A DNA stretch of 64,000 nucleotides from contig JACASX010000001.1 in the NCBI GenBank assembly GCA_013390745.1, positions 124,001 to 188,000 of the forward strand, written 5' to 3'. Source of the stretch: Marine Group I thaumarchaeote. GTDB lineage: Archaea; Thermoproteota; Nitrososphaeria; Nitrososphaerales; Nitrosopumilaceae. The position numbers and the translations under genes are program-made. The notes beneath the pieces are model-generated. The model searched no databases and was not told where the DNA came from. It saw only the letters and a program-made list of their open reading frames with translations. Below, piece by piece: positions 9,826 to 36,137 of the stretch (position 1 is its first letter; every line of letters begins with the position of its first letter).

Positions 9826-9936
9826 TTATCTTTTATTTCTGCGATAAATATTGGTATTGTTGACGATTATGTTAGATTAACAACTGAATACTTTGGATAC
9901 CATGAAAAGATCGGTTTATTCTGAATATCCACAATT

Positions 9937-9944
9937 CTTAAAAT
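9937..9944 (+). promoter_or_regulatory. Possible TATA box for microprotein pair
   Basis: CTTAAAAT centred about 27 nt before the GTG at 9968, a spacing suited to a leaderless message for the two small genes downstream. It is weak evidence by itself in AT-rich DNA. Confidence 0.35.
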
Positions 9945-9967
9945 AAAGTCAGATCTTTGGATGTTTT

Positions 9968-10084
9968 GTGGTAACAAAAAGAGTAGAAACCAAGGTAGGA
10001 ATAAGATCCAAAAAAATTAGCAGAAAAAGGCAGAGAATGTTAAACTTGGAAAGACAAAACAAACTTGCACGTAAGAGCAGATAA
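9968..10084 (+). CDS. Putative 38-residue basic microprotein
   Basis: Short GTG-started frame encoding 38 residues, 15 of them Lys or Arg, with no hydrophobic core. Support is contextual: a TATA-like element lies about 27 nt upstream, and a second small frame starts 2 nt after its stop, as in a mini-operon. The composition suggests nucleic-acid or ribosome binding. It could also be noncoding sequence in an AT-rich gap, so confidence is modest. Confidence 0.42.
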   Translation: MVTKRVETKVGIRSKKISRKRQRMLNLERQNKLARKSR

Positions 10085-10086
10085 TT

Positions 10087-10263
10087 ATGAACGATAAGGA
10101 AAAAATCAAAGCAATGGAGAAAGTGATGTACATACAAGAAGAAAAAATCAAAGGAGTCGTACATTTGTTAGATCTATTGAAATCAAGATTAGAAACAGGT
10201 CAAAATAGTAACGGAGAGATCTTACTAGTAATAGAAGAAATCAAAAGAGAATTAATTTATTAA
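10087..10263 (+). CDS. Putative 58-residue coiled-coil microprotein
   Basis: ATG-started frame of 58 residues, charged and helical, with heptad-like Leu/Ile spacing (MEKVMYIQEEKIKGVVHLLD, then ILLVIEEIKRELI). It follows the basic microprotein by 2 nt and ends at the first copy of a 15-bp direct repeat (10263-10277). Regular helix-forming composition argues for coding. No family recognised; perhaps a small adaptor or antitoxin-like helix, though nothing shows that. Confidence 0.5.
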   Translation: MNDKEKIKAMEKVMYIQEEKIKGVVHLLDLLKSRLETGQNSNGEILLVIEEIKRELIY

Positions 10264-10291
10264 AAACGAGTTTTCAGGTTTACACAATTTT

Positions 10292-10310
10292 TAAGATAAG
10301 TGTTATCTTA
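10292..10310. promoter_or_regulatory. Perfect 8-bp inverted repeat, candidate operator
   Basis: TAAGATAA-GTG-TTATCTTA, two perfect 8-bp arms round a 3-bp centre, ending 7 bp before the ATG of the small membrane ORF. With a T-rich element at about 10287-10293, the palindrome would cover the transcription start, the usual place for an archaeal repressor. A hairpin terminator for the upstream microgenes is the alternative, but no T-tract follows. Confidence 0.5.
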
Positions 10311-10317
10311 GAATGTT

Positions 10318-10512
10318 ATGGTATTTGATAGTAAGCTCTCATGTAGCTGGATGTCTATCAAGCTGATTTTTTTAATCGTCCTTGCCATAATTATTGTACT
10401 GGTATTTGCATTTCTGTTAATGATATCTATTTTTGGGCTTCCAACCGAATTTACGAATAGCCTATACGATATTTGCCGAGCTTTTGCAACCTTCCTTGAT
10501 TATCCCTGCTGA
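10318..10512 (+). CDS. Putative small membrane protein
   Basis: 64 residues with one strongly hydrophobic helix (residues about 15-38, LIFLIVLAIIIVLVFAFLLM) and a short polar C-terminus ending in Cys. An alternative ATG twelve codons in would place the helix at the very N-terminus. It is enclosed by the 15-bp direct repeats and preceded by the palindrome at 10292-10310. No family recognised. A second frame runs across its 3' half, so a real gene is likely but not certain. Confidence 0.42.
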   Translation: MVFDSKLSCSWMSIKLIFLIVLAIIIVLVFAFLLMISIFGLPTEFTNSLYDICRAFATFLDYPC

Positions 10513-10643
10513 TTTTGGTAATAATAAAACGAGTTTTCAGTCGTTACTAACTCGAAAGCGTTCAGGACTTACACACTCAAAAAGTCTAACAAGTTTTACT
10601 ATTTATGTTTCTGTAAATATTTAATTTTCGTATTCTGAGTATT

Positions 10644-10730
10644 CTAAATTATATTAAACAGAAGTATTATCACTCCAACGAGTATAATGGCAGTTGGGAT
10701 CATCGTTGATTTATACAGTTTATCAATCAT
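10644..10730 (-). CDS. Putative 28-residue single-helix membrane peptide
   Basis: Very short frame beginning MIDKLYKS followed by a hydrophobic helix IPTAIILVGVIILLFNII. Its ATG overlaps the end of the zinc-ribbon gene at 10723-10959 by 8 nt, so translational coupling is likely. Small membrane peptides of this kind (compare the one at 21465-21689, which starts MIGKLIITAIIL) occur repeatedly in this window. Confidence 0.45.
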   Translation of the reverse strand: MIDKLYKSTMIPTAIILVGVIILLFNII

Positions 10731-10959
10731 CTAAACAAGAACCACATTCCATTTTTTTATCATACCAATTAGTCAGGAACAAATACACATTACCACAAAT
10801 AGAACATTCACCCGTCTTTCTATGTCGTCTTATCAATTTGTAGTACAAAATTAACAAAGGATTGATCTTTTCACTATGAATCTGAAAATTTTCGTCATAA
10901 AAATAGATTTTCCATATAGAATTATTCTTTTTTGATACTGAAATTACATATTTTTGCAT
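10723..10959 (-). CDS. Zinc-ribbon hypothetical protein
   Basis: 78 residues: an N-terminal beta-rich half and a C-terminal ribbon with two CxxC knuckles (ECSICG and ECGSCLDD) about 20 residues apart, enough to bind one zinc. The following 28-residue membrane peptide is translationally coupled to it. Three tandem 10-bp units lie directly in front of its start codon (10960-10989), which suggests specific regulation. Function unknown. Confidence 0.65.
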   Translation of the reverse strand: MQKYVISVSKKNNSIWKIYFYDENFQIHSEKINPLLILYYKLIRRHRKTGECSICGNVYLFLTNWYDKKMECGSCLDD

Positions 10960-10989
10960 ACTCTATCAGACTCTATTAGACTCTATGAA
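10960..10989. promoter_or_regulatory. Three tandem 10-bp repeats at start of zinc-ribbon gene
   Basis: Three head-to-tail units of ACTCTATYAG (third unit ACTCTATGAA), one helical turn each, abutting the minus-strand ATG. A TATA-like AATTTAAG at about 11006-11013 on the upstream side would place transcription start inside the array, so a protein bound along one face could block transcription. A 5' UTR element is the alternative. Confidence 0.5.
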
Positions 10990-11285
10990 GTACGAAAGAG
11001 TATCGAATTTAAGCCGATCTACAACCAAAATAATCTAATCAATGGAAGTGTGTGCCAGCTATAGACCATGCACTAACCGACCTACTGCATGGACAGAGCC
11101 AAACCCAAACGCATACAATAGAACATTAGAAAACTGTATGCAAATTGTATGCACTAGTATGCGTATAGTATGCGTATAGTATGCAGAATTTAATATTATT
11201 TCACGTTGAATGTCATTAACTCAACAAAAATGTGGTGTTCATATTGGTTATCTTTGACCTTTAGGTTGTACTAATGACTGTACAC
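10990..11285. other. Intergenic stretch with no convincing gene
   Basis: About 300 bp between the zinc-ribbon gene and a minus-strand microgene. It holds a CCATGC/GCATGG inverted pair (11066-11071 and 11087-11092) and the phased GTATGC array. A 45-codon frame at 11042-11179 ends inside the array and is not convincing. I see no tRNA or obvious C/D-box RNA; a small regulatory RNA cannot be excluded. Confidence 0.5.
11111..11184. promoter_or_regulatory. Helically phased GTATGC array
   Basis: Five GTATGC hexamers begin at 11136, 11147, 11157, 11168 and 11179, that is at 10-11 bp intervals, and an inverted copy GCATAC lies at 11111. The last three are embedded in an 11-bp repeat (GTATAGTATGC). 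A further GCATAC overlaps the start codon of the zinc-ribbon gene (10956-10961). The spacing puts every copy on the same DNA face, as in cooperative operators or iterons. Confidence 0.6.
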
Positions 11286-11360
11286 TCAGGAATTTGCTTC
11301 AATGTCTTCTTCAAGGTCTTTTCCAAGACCTTTCCACCATTGATCAAGATCCTGTGCCAT
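11286..11360 (-). CDS. Putative 24-residue acidic microprotein
   Basis: Short frame MAQDLDQWWKGLGKDLEEDI plus four residues: acidic, amphipathic, with a WW pair. A TATATA element (about 11383-11391 on the complementary reading) lies 27 nt upstream of the ATG, as expected for a leaderless gene. Its compositional regularity and promoter spacing argue for translation, but it is very short and I recognise no family. Confidence 0.38.
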   Translation of the reverse strand: MAQDLDQWWKGLGKDLEEDIEANS

Positions 11361-11402
11361 TTAGAAAATTTAATTAATTATCGTATATAGATCTGCTGGT
11401 TG

Positions 11403-11816
11403 CTAGATTTTGCTATAAATTATCCTAGGTTTTGACTCACCCTGCTCATAAATTTCGGTTTTTAATTCAATCTTTCCAAATTCATCATGGTTTATAGAAA
11501 ACACAACTGGGGTAGTTGACCATCCATACTTTGGCTCAAAATTAATTTCGATGATTTCTACAAGCGAGCTCTGTGAAAATTCCTTGTGGAATGTTTTTTC
11601 CATGCCCAAAACCTCAAGAATGATTAGGTTTGTCATTTCAGAATTATCATTGTACGTAATTCTAACAATCTTATTTTTTGGTTCATACACTGCATCAACA
11701 AAAATTATCTGAGATATTGTAGATTCATCTAATGCTGAATCAGATGTGATTGATATCACTATAGCTGCAATTGCGATTATTGACGCAACAGCAATAATTT
11801 TCCTATTCATTCTCAT
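11403..11816 (-). CDS. Membrane-anchored hypothetical protein
   Basis: 137 residues. An N-terminal hydrophobic segment (IIAVASIIAIAAIVISI, about residues 6-23) with two upstream Arg and one Lys looks like a signal anchor, followed by a predicted beta-rich extracellular domain of about 105 residues without cysteines. Its ATG overlaps the aminopeptidase stop (ATGA), so the two are probably co-translated. No family recognised; the context suggests an outside-facing partner of the peptidase, which is inference. Confidence 0.72.
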   Translation of the reverse strand: MRMNRKIIAVASIIAIAAIVISITSDSALDESTISQIIFVDAVYEPKNKIVRITYNDNSEMTNLIILEVLGMEKTFHKEFSQSSLVEIIEINFEPKYGWSTTPVVFSINHDEFGKIELKTEIYEQGESKPRIIYSKI

Positions 11817-14320
11817 CCAAATTCTGCTTTGATACGCCGCAAAAACTTTGATCTAATTCTAACTCTTTCCAATGTCTGTTCTATAACACGCTCTGTTCCA
11901 GGTAAGGGGTTTCTTTTGAAAAAGTTACGTACATCTCTTTCCTGTTTATCATCAATTACACCACCAACGCTAGCAACAATTCTATTCGCGAGTGGATTAC
12001 CAACCCCAAACTTTCTAACTAATTCTTTCCAATGATTCTTAAGCCATGGCCAAAGAACATCCTTGCCGTAAATATTAGCTGATACACCCATAATTGGAGC
12101 ACGGATATTTTGAGAACGTACTTCTGGGGTTAGGGAAAGGGCTAGTGTTTTAAGCAGTAAATTTTTTTGCTTAAAATTACACATCGCCATAAGAAATCTA
12201 ATCTTTTCTTCTTGTAAAGTAGACTTTCTGTAAAGCGACAAAAGTTTATTGTAAGTTTTTTTATCTCCTTGCCATGCCGCTAATACAAAAACTGGTTCCT
12301 GCAGATCAGCGGCAAGAGAATTTTTATTTTTAAGAAATTTATTAAAACGTTTGTTTGCTTCGCTGAGTATTTCCTTATCGCCAAGTTTACCAAGTGCGGT
12401 TATCACAAAACTACGTAACAATGAATCAGTGTGTCTCTCATTTTTTTTGGAATCCCAATCAAGGCGGTCAAATATTGTTCCCAAAAATTGTGCAGTATAG
12501 GTACGGATTTCATCAGAAAATTTTTCTTTAGTGGTTAGTTTGTATAGATAGTAAAGATTTTGCGCTAAATTCAGCAGAGTGATATAATCATCCTCATCGT
12601 GATATGATGTTGTAAAATCAAGATATTCCTGGAGTTGTTTTGTGCCTGATATACACTGTGAAAACAAATCATTCTGTAAACTCCATCTATCAACATGATT
12701 CAATATTTTTTCATCAATCAATAATGATAGCTTCGCTAAACTGTGATCATCATATTGAACTCTGTAAAACCCATAGCGACCTGAATTAATTATAAAATTT
12801 GAATCTCTGTTTTTCAGAGATACACTGCTAGAGTGTGATTTCATTAAGATTGAGTTTTCGTGATTTCCCTCTTCAATCTGTATTGGAATTGTCCATTTAT
12901 TTTTAGAAACTCTACTCCCATCAGATAAGAAGCGTTTCTGTGTTAATGATATTTTTGAATTATTCCGTTTAACATTCACAACTGGATACCCAACCTGATC
13001 AATCCATGTTTTCATCATAGAGTCAACAGGTTTATGTGCAATTTTCCCAATTGAATTCCATAAATCCAGTCCTTCTGCATTTGAATATCTATGTTTAGTA
13101 AGATAATGTTTCAGTCCTTTACGAAAGTTTTCTATTCCAACATAATTCTCCAACATACGTAAAACACTCCCACCCTTGTCGTAGCTGATTGCGTCAAAGA
13201 TTTCTCTAATTTGTGCTGGGTGTTTTACGTCCACATTTATTGGGTGAGAATTTTTTAATGCGTCAAGACTCATAGCTTGTAACATTGCATCATCTAAAAA
13301 CTGGTCCCAAAGATCCCACTCTGGATAAAACTTGTCCACGATTTTTGTTGCCATGAATGTTGCAAAGCTTTCATTCAGCCAAAGATCATTCCACCATTTC
13401 ATCGTAACAAGATTACCAAACCATTGGTGAGCTATCTCATGGGATATTACTTCCGCAATGTACTGCTTTGTCCTAGTTGAAGATGTCTTTGGATCATAAA
13501 GTAAAATTGCCTCTCTGAATGTAATTGCACCCCAATTCTCCATTGCACCAGCAGCAAAATCAGGTATAGCTATCATGTCAAGTTTTGGAAGTGGATACTT
13601 TATTCCAAAATATTTTTCATACTCACTGAGAAACTTCTTGGTAAAGTCTAGTGAAAGTTTGCCCTTATTCTTATTGCCTTTTGTGGTAACAATTCTTATC
13701 TTGATATTTCGTAGCTTTCCATGTAAATATTCAAACTCACCTACACCAAGATACAAAAGATACGTTGACATTACTGGAGTTCGCTCAAACTTATACAGGA
13801 TTTTTGAACCAACAATTTTCTTAGATGTAACTGGCATGTTTGAGATTGCATCCAAGTGCTTATCGACTAAAAGAGATACATCAAATGTTGCCTTAACAGC
13901 GGGTTCGTCCCAGCAGGGAAATGCCCTTCTAGCGTCAGCAGCCTCAAACTGTGTTGTTGCAAGATACTTTGTTTTCCCCTTTCTATCCTTGTACTGGCTT
14001 CTGTAAAATCCTAAAAGTCTATCATTCAAGGTTCCAGTAAACTTGATGGAAAGTTTTGCTTTCCCTTTTATTTTCTTTGCAAGTTTAATTGTCAGTTTTT
14101 CATTTTTTTCATTTAGAGATAATTTTGTAGGGATGATTTTCCTTCCTTGTGTTATATGAGATTCTTTTATGCTGAGTTCTGCAGCGTCTAGTATGATTGA
14201 ATTAGTCGGTTTTGATAAATTGAGAGTAATAATTTCCTCACCGTTAAACTTAAAATTATGAAATAATGGTTCAAACACAAGTTCATAGTTGATTGGGATT
14301 ACGCCTGCCATACCGTGCAT
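11813..14320 (-). CDS. M1-family zinc aminopeptidase
   Basis: 835-residue gluzincin of the tricorn-interacting-factor F / aminopeptidase N type. The substrate-binding GAMEN motif (about residues 258-262) and the zinc motif HEIAHQW with downstream NES Glu (about 294-320) are intact, followed by the armadillo-like ERAP C-terminal domain. It removes N-terminal residues from peptides, probably downstream of the proteasome. No signal peptide is visible, so it is cytosolic. Two starts are possible (ATG here or three codons in). It diverges from mcmB and leads a two-gene unit with the anchored protein downstream. Confidence 0.93.
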   Translation of the reverse strand: MHGMAGVIPINYELVFEPLFHNFKFNGEEIITLNLSKPTNSIILDAAELSIKESHITQGRKIIPTKLSLNEKNEKLTIKLAKKIKGKAKLSIKFTGTLNDRLLGFYRSQYKDRKGKTKYLATTQFEAADARRAFPCWDEPAVKATFDVSLLVDKHLDAISNMPVTSKKIVGSKILYKFERTPVMSTYLLYLGVGEFEYLHGKLRNIKIRIVTTKGNKNKGKLSLDFTKKFLSEYEKYFGIKYPLPKLDMIAIPDFAAGAMENWGAITFREAILLYDPKTSSTRTKQYIAEVISHEIAHQWFGNLVTMKWWNDLWLNESFATFMATKIVDKFYPEWDLWDQFLDDAMLQAMSLDALKNSHPINVDVKHPAQIREIFDAISYDKGGSVLRMLENYVGIENFRKGLKHYLTKHRYSNAEGLDLWNSIGKIAHKPVDSMMKTWIDQVGYPVVNVKRNNSKISLTQKRFLSDGSRVSKNKWTIPIQIEEGNHENSILMKSHSSSVSLKNRDSNFIINSGRYGFYRVQYDDHSLAKLSLLIDEKILNHVDRWSLQNDLFSQCISGTKQLQEYLDFTTSYHDEDDYITLLNLAQNLYYLYKLTTKEKFSDEIRTYTAQFLGTIFDRLDWDSKKNERHTDSLLRSFVITALGKLGDKEILSEANKRFNKFLKNKNSLAADLQEPVFVLAAWQGDKKTYNKLLSLYRKSTLQEEKIRFLMAMCNFKQKNLLLKTLALSLTPEVRSQNIRAPIMGVSANIYGKDVLWPWLKNHWKELVRKFGVGNPLANRIVASVGGVIDDKQERDVRNFFKRNPLPGTERVIEQTLERVRIRSKFLRRIKAEFG

Positions 14321-34520: not shown

Positions 34521-36137
34521 ATGCGTGAAAAATTTTCAGCATCTGAAAGAAAAAAACTTTTAAAACATTTCTCGAATATTGACAATTCTGTTTTTGTCAT
34601 TACAACACCTAAACAAGTTGATCGAGGCGCACTCATGTCTAGATATAGTAGAACGGATAAAACTATGCGTAGGGTATTTCTTGATGAGTTTTTAAAAAAT
34701 CAAAATCGTGGAGAGGAATTTTACAAACGTGTTCTGCTTGAATATGGCGACGATTCAGTTGCTGAATTAGGTGGTGCACAAATTGCAATCGAAGGATTAT
34801 CTAACATTGCTGTGAAAAAAATTGAGGATAGAAGAATTGGGTTATCCTATTTAGAAAAATCATCAAGGTATGTAGCTTGGGATAAAAAATTAAATGGCAA
34901 ATACAAATTTTTTCGTGAGCCAACTTTAATGAAATCACGTTTTGTTGATGACTATCTGGAATCATGTAATTTGGATTTCAACATATATGCAAAGAATGTC
35001 CAGCCAATGTTAAAATTCATACGAGAAAATGATCCCATTGAAAATTACAAATTTAAATCACAAGATGGCACTGAAAAGAAAATTTCGAAATTAAAGAATG
35101 AAAATGACATAAAATCTGCTAATATGATTTATCGTGCTGCAACGAAAGCAAAGGCATTAGATGTTTTACGTGGACTGTTACCTGCATCAACACTAACTAA
35201 TGTTGGTATCACTGGAAATGGTCGCGCGTTTGAATATCTTATAACAATTCTTTTTAGCTCTAAATTGACTGAAGAAAAACAGCTTGCATCTAAAATTAAA
35301 CATGAATTAGATGCCACAATCAAATCATTTGTCAGTCGTTCAAATGACAAATATGGAAAGGCACTACAAAAATATTTCAATGACATTAAAAAAATTTCGT
35401 ATAAGGCATCTAGAAATAATATTCGTGGTAAACCAATTCTTGGAAATAATGTAAAATTAGTAGAATTTGAGCCTGAATTAAGATCAATAAACAGTATTAT
35501 CACCGCATTAATTTTTGAACAATCTCCTAGCCTTTCATTTGACCAAATTTTTAAAAATGTGAAAAAAATGAGTAAAAAATCAAAAATTAAGATTGTTGGG
35601 CAGCTAATCAATGCAAGGCAAAATAGAAGGCATAGACCCCCAAGAGCCTTTGAAATGACTGGTTACACATTTGATCTGCTAACAAACTTTGGAATGTTTA
35701 GAGACCTTCATAGACATCGAGCACTTACACTTGAAAGGCAGTTACTTACAACAGATCATAGTTTTGATACACCGAATGAAATCATAGAACTTGGAATCGA
35801 AAAAGACTTTGATGATTGTATGTATCTAACCAAATCTGTTTTTCAAAAAATGAGACATAAATTTCCAGAACAATCCCAATACATTGTAAATTTTGCCTAC
35901 AATTATCCATATTACATGCGCTTTAACCTCCGAGAGGCAACGCACCTAATTGAACTAAGAACAGTACCACAGGGTCATGCAGACTACAGAAAGATTGTAC
36001 AAGAAATGTATCGCTTGATTAACAAAAAACATCCAACATTATCAAAAATCATGAAATATGTTGATTTGAATCAATATGATTTAGAAAGATTTGAATCTGA
36101 GAAACGTACAGAAGAAAAAAGAAAAAAAATTGAATGA
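34521..36137 (+). CDS. thyX: Tandem (fused) ThyX-type thymidylate synthase
   Basis: 538 residues, about twice the usual 220-260 of flavin-dependent thymidylate synthase, and it reads as two ThyX domains in line. First half: [14 protein letters not shown] (about 104-118), matching RHRxxSxNExSxRY at R, S, E, S, R, Y, then [22 protein letters not shown]. Second half: [13 protein letters not shown] (about 394-406), keeping RHR but losing the SxNExSxR part, then [23 protein letters not shown]. ThyX makes dTMP from dUMP with FAD and methylene-folate. No ThyA is seen in the window. Whether this fusion is the active enzyme is not certain. msrB overlaps its end. Confidence 0.82.

Follow-up and report, generated by a model that had tools for sequence, protein, structure and literature searches.

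A helically phased GTATGC array read as a candidate distal operator of a zinc-ribbon gene family in Nitrosopumilaceae

The window is the whole stretch of DNA that was analysed, 64,000 nucleotides from the genome of a Marine Group I thaumarchaeote (contig JACASX010000001.1, positions 124,001 to 188,000), and positions below are counted from its first letter. Comparison with relatives identified an insert in it. Five close relatives (L002-L006) have one copy of ATATTGGT and no insert; there a MeaB-type GTPase gene, a short intergenic stretch and a 24-aa ORF follow directly in succession. The insert contains a coiled-coil-like ORF, a small putative membrane ORF, a zinc-ribbon gene and two arrays of phased repeats, and none of its ORFs is a recognisable recombinase or replication protein. 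Features of the locus are:

9848 to 11248, no strand: insert of 1393 bp between direct repeats ATATTGGT (9848-9855 and 11241-11248), from comparison with relatives
10087 to 10263, plus strand: 58-aa coiled-coil-like ORF; by inspection, the paralogue of the zinc-ribbon gene has a similar ORF next to it
10318 to 10512, plus strand: 64-aa putative membrane ORF, from the ORF list and family search
10723 to 10959, minus strand: gene for a 78-aa zinc-ribbon protein, the proposed autoregulator, modelled as three strands, a helix and a CxxC/CxxC ribbon
10960 to 10986, minus strand: proximal phased array ATAGAGTCTA/ATAGAGTCTG/ATAGAGT with a 10-bp period, the proposed operator, from the hexamer scan and family comparison
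11004 to 11013, minus strand: TATA-like stretch CTTAAATTCG, about 50 bp before the start codon, by inspection
11111 to 11116, plus strand: single inverted GCATAC adjoining the distal array, from the sequence
11136 to 11184, minus strand: distal phased array of five GCATAC (GTATGC on the plus strand) at steps of 11, 10, 11 and 11 bp, lying 175-225 bp upstream of the zinc-ribbon start codon

Other small elements were noted in and beside the insert. A 38-aa very basic ORF (MVTKRVETKVGIRSKKISRKRQRMLNLERQNKLARKSR; 9968-10084, plus strand) has a near-match elsewhere in the genome, at about 8785-8890 of L051, and is too short to appear in the ORF list. A repeated stretch at 9902-9946 reads as a C-terminal peptide, (W)FIPEYPQFLR-stop, and recurs in L051 (around 8917, 9196, 10157, 10400, 14998 and 15298) and L016 (around 690-757); it terminates several very small ORFs in tiny-gene islands of this genome and a few congeners, where many genes are CxxC/C2H2-like. 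The 24-aa ORF to the right of the insert (MAQDLDQWWKGLGKDLEEDIEANS; 11286-11360, minus strand) is probably a microprotein, with DNA matches in 24 of the 61 genomes searched, all of the same genus; its DNA includes AAGGTCTTGGAAAAGACCTT, a GNRA-like hairpin. A conserved non-coding element, AAAACGAGTTTTCAG..CGTTACTAACTCGAAAG..TTCAGG.CTTACACACTC, with CGAGTT/AACTCG arms, lies 3' of small ORFs in both zinc-ribbon modules of the genome (window 10526-10583; L016 1308-1363). A cassette or attC reading of the AACGAGTTTTCAG element was dropped, there being few strict copies and, by eye, no attC-like core pair. An RNA family search of window 10000-12000 gave chance matches only.

On the plus strand GTATGC starts at 11136, 11147, 11157, 11168 and 11179, exactly the five positions, and hence the spacing of 11, 10, 11 and 11 bp, given by an earlier sequence-only reading of this DNA; its coordinates for further GCATAC copies at 11111-11116 and 10956-10961 were likewise borne out. 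As read from the sequence, GCATACAAT at the former site pairs with ATTGTATGC at 11144-11152. All five array copies have an identical hexamer, whereas the spacers differ in most columns and one of them is shorter by one base; the array has no phased A/T tracts of at least four. Its phasing is exceptional, though the hexamer itself is not enriched (22 occurrences in the window vs 19.9 expected). When the window was scanned for hexamers of any kind recurring every 10-11 bp, the five-copy GTATGC proved to be the longest chain; the only other independent chains were ACTCTA x3 at 10960 and an A-rich one at 35553. Across 100 dinucleotide-preserving shuffles of the window, the longest chain was of three copies, seen in 6 shuffles. 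Elsewhere in the 1.08-Mb genome the pair pattern GTATGC-N4/5-GTATGC is absent, and 3 of 30 congeners have one unrelated pair each. The zinc-ribbon gene start is the sole one adjoining the array. The surroundings had been described as a gene-poor gap, which is true in part only, because the 24-aa ORF, with DNA conserved across the genus, starts ~100 bp further right.

Relatives lack the entire 1.4-kb segment, and hence the GTATGC array has no orthologue. Comparison of orthologous loci is therefore uninformative, and paralogous and family loci are the right comparison. Nearer the gene is a second phased array, absent from the earlier reading: three ATAGAGT repeats that abut the zinc-ribbon start codon, the exact two-copy pattern of which is found nowhere else in the genome. 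The GCATAC over the start codon, correctly placed earlier, more plausibly forms the end of the third ATAGAGT repeat. The genome has a paralogue of the zinc-ribbon gene (L016/L083), 61% identical, also adjoining a coiled-coil-like ORF. Its two upstream arrays are likewise proximal, made of GAGGTTG x3 at the start codon, and distal, made of T-tract/ACCTTT units at 10-11 bp steps from about -137 to -54. The two genes have in common, by eye, TAAATTCGATACTC within the TATA-like stretch. No phased chains were found in 30 kb of further sequence from this genome (L051, L053).

We found about 40 relatives of the zinc-ribbon protein, nearly all in Nitrosopumilaceae. A profile built from three sequences detected them in 28 of 250 Nitrosopumilaceae genomes; one built from 27 sequences, run on 400 genomes of the order, detected them in 34. 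The family alignment (A2) has four invariant cysteines, an invariant Lys, and a near-invariant Ser in an N-terminal SVSK motif; the window protein has all four cysteines and both the SVSK Lys and Ser. Two AlphaFold2 models (mean pLDDT 80 and 85) both show three strands and one helix followed by a zinc ribbon of two strands. Searches of Pfam, NCBIfam, PHROGs and PDB sequences gave no confident family match, and a PDB fold search with the two models returned nothing significant, DNA-binding relatives included. Viral contigs contained no family relatives and genome contigs one, apparently that of G002. The literature searched, with incomplete coverage, yielded no description of the family and no binding sites assigned to such a family, and the family is absent from the passages searched of a survey of thaumarchaeal integrated elements (PMC6563490). 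Family genes in L154, L155 and L156 lie near viral-type DNA polymerase B genes (identified by Pfam in L154 and L156 and by eye, from protein similarity, in L155), and L157 has an integrase near its family gene. The position of several members beside such genes points to mobile elements.

Phased repeats at the gene start are a property of the family. On reading, the DNA ahead of the start codons contained direct repeats in almost all members. We measured self-similarity within -45..+6, with the lag set to 10 or 11 bp, and found direct repeats above threshold at 30 of 37 analysable family starts, vs 13 of 218 controls (6%; Fisher test, 2e-22), in a comparison with a small control set and many incomplete genomes. 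Clade members are not independent of one another; among non-redundant starts the count was 16 of 22 (1e-12). At lags of 13 or 14 none of the 37 family starts reached the threshold. TATA calls were made by eye. The commonest start class is GAAGTATCATAGAGGTATC|ATG; a second has TGATAGCTCAGTGATAGCTCA|ATG, a third TTAGACGTGATTAGACGTG and a fourth GTATCCTAGTAGTATCC, and there are the own types besides. The repeat unit varies with protein clade (GTATC, TGATAGCTC, GACGTG and own types). In a maximum-likelihood protein tree TGATAGCTC, GACGTG and the own type each mark one well-supported group on a long branch, and the GTATC class is spread over the rest. The pattern GTATCAT-N4-GTATCAT has 16 sites in 250 genomes, compared with 4 for a reversed-pattern control. 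Of the 16, 8 fall at the starts of family genes, including that of a truncated copy. Such a pair was also noted in L141 at about 1501 (G155) and in L139 (G141), with conserved upstream context in both; in G155 it precedes a small membrane-like ORF, possibly a second target gene of a GTATC-class regulator. Given their helical phasing, their position over the start and a unit that changes with the protein, the start-codon repeats are best read as a candidate autoregulatory operator, proposed to bind the regulator encoded next to it.

Distal arrays are rarer. Chains of at least three hexamers within -400..-45 were found at 4 of 37 family genes, vs 3 of 261 controls (1%; p = 0.005). One is at L113 of G089, from another genus, where CATAC x3 lies at -218 in 11-bp steps, with a further pair at -114; the repeats have the orientation of the window array and have the CATAC core and 11-bp spacing in common with it. 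The proximal unit of this gene is TGATAGCTC. G089 also has a degenerate family copy, which bears the pair GCATAC/CCATAC at its start. Across 250 genomes we counted roughly 16 loci with phased CATAC triples, two of them directly upstream of family genes and several being perfect minisatellites, simple repeats or coding sequence. As a separate case, G226 contig 87 carries two 10-bp-phased CATAC arrays about 2 kb apart (L175 1501-1537 and L190 1501-1527), both placed about 80-90 bp ahead of a gene; the two genes encode similar secreted-looking proteins, of a different family. At the window locus, TAGAGTATGCA, the third proximal copy plus the start codon, shares 10 of 11 positions with TATAGTATGCA, a distal unit in inverted orientation, a weak similarity (permutation p about 0.03); proximal and distal units of the paralogue and of L066 gave no significant match. 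We read the GTATGC array as a distal candidate operator of the zinc-ribbon regulatory family because distal arrays are enriched at family genes and CATAC repeats recur at those of G089.

The explanation of the whole that we favour, and think somewhat more probable than otherwise from these sequence patterns, is that the GTATGC array is a distal phased binding region of the promoter of a small, mobile-element-associated and autorepressing zinc-ribbon gene. Several copies of the protein would sit in a row on a single face of the helix, each turn taking one. They would first occupy the direct repeats of 10-11-bp period at the start of transcription/translation, thereby blocking the protein's own promoter. 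The distal array would act as an accessory site for the same protein or a sister protein of the family, and binding there may reinforce or tune control. The earlier proposal of cooperative binding on one face thus gains indirect and partial backing, from the start repeats and from the excess of distal arrays. Its suggestion of the zinc-ribbon protein as the binder now looks good on the same two grounds, above all for the start-site repeats; its iteron and nucleoid-site readings gained no support.

The favoured explanation has to contend with the presence of distal arrays at only 4 of 37 family genes and with a fold search that gave no significant DNA-binding relative. In one rival reading the proximal repeats are the autoregulator's operator, but some other protein occupies the distal array, be it a host regulator, a further member of the family or the regulator of the element from which the insert came. 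We hold this to be unlikely, though a serious candidate. The proximal and distal units of the window are unlike each other (ATAGAGT vs GTATGC), and the G089 gene that pairs TGATAGCTC proximal repeats with CATAC distal ones also allows that distal sites serve another factor; the degenerate G089 copy with GCATAC/CCATAC at its start suggests that some family protein may read SCATAC. Against a separate binder stands the agreement of TAGAGTATGCA with inverted TATAGTATGCA. A functionless short minisatellite produced by slippage is improbable in our judgement. Perfect-unit CATAC minisatellites do exist elsewhere in Nitrosopumilaceae genomes (11-bp in G078 and G136, 10-bp in G271), and the insert, absent in relatives, may be young; yet a hexamer intact five times among varying spacers, one short by a base, is unlike fresh tandem copies, and slippage does not fit the enrichment of distal arrays at family genes (4/37 vs 3/261).

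T-tracts at 10-11 bp steps are the classic pattern of curved DNA, and the distal array of the paralogue, built in this way, could simply curve it. That the phasing serves intrinsic curvature rather than specific recognition seems to us very improbable, since curvature does not need an exact hexamer and the window array lacks phased A/T tracts of four or more. We give least credence of all, hardly any, to an iteron-type replication origin or an integration site of the inserted element. Phased direct repeats within an inserted segment would suit such a site, as would the polymerase-B or integrase genes near some relatives, but the array is away from the insert ends, the insert has no recognisable replication protein or recombinase gene, and an adjacent replication initiator gene, the mark of an iteron origin, is absent among its ORFs.

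The proposed system, an autorepressor with proximal and distal phased sites, can be compared with known ones. AP2/ERF and arm-type DNA-binding domains consist of three strands and one helix, the sheet packed on the helix, and each covers about 6-8 bp. The predicted model has the same order of elements, and a site of 6-8 bp would fit. Unlike those domains, the present one is followed by a zinc ribbon; AP2 was not among the Pfam families found for 27 members, and no PDB fold matched significantly. The C-terminal CxxC...CxxC ribbon resembles FmdB / Zn_ribbon_8, the profile of which matched 15-19 of 27 members weakly and the window protein not at all, and the N-terminal domain and genomic setting of the family differ.

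The F55 repressor of Sulfolobus spindle-shaped virus 1 has sites with two tandem repeats of consensus ATAGATAGAGT (PMC5569661), to which the ATAGAGT repeats are oddly close. Like F55, the window protein is a very small archaeal mobile-element protein, its DNA binding being proposed here, with tandem repeats in promoter DNA. Membership of the F55 type was rejected, however: F55 has a ribbon-helix-helix fold and lacks a zinc ribbon, whereas the AlphaFold2 models have three strands, a helix and then the two strands of the ribbon (pLDDT 80-85). The archaeal virus regulators SvtR and AvtR are thought to spread from a distal high-affinity site towards the promoter, and AvtR represses its own gene (PMC5569661). 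The distal-to-promoter arrangement that we propose for the two arrays is similar, but SvtR and AvtR are ribbon-helix-helix proteins that use imperfect inverted repeats, in contrast to the direct repeats at one helical turn seen here.

The reading of one odd repeat array, made without tools, has led to a family-wide regulatory signature. Taken more broadly, the observations would describe a new family of archaeal regulators whose monomers each read one turn, head-to-tail, with the word rewritten along with the protein in each clade and the distal arrays serving as long-range operators; we regard the case for and against this as evenly balanced. Thaumarchaeal regulators are, to our knowledge, little characterised, and here a small, otherwise unannotated family of about 40 loci comes together with its probable operators. 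The unit classes, of which there are at least four to five, track the protein tree, so that protein-DNA specificity becomes directly testable with small proteins and short DNA. If the broader description is true, the evolution of DNA specificity could be studied in the protein/operator pairs that the family would provide as a natural series.
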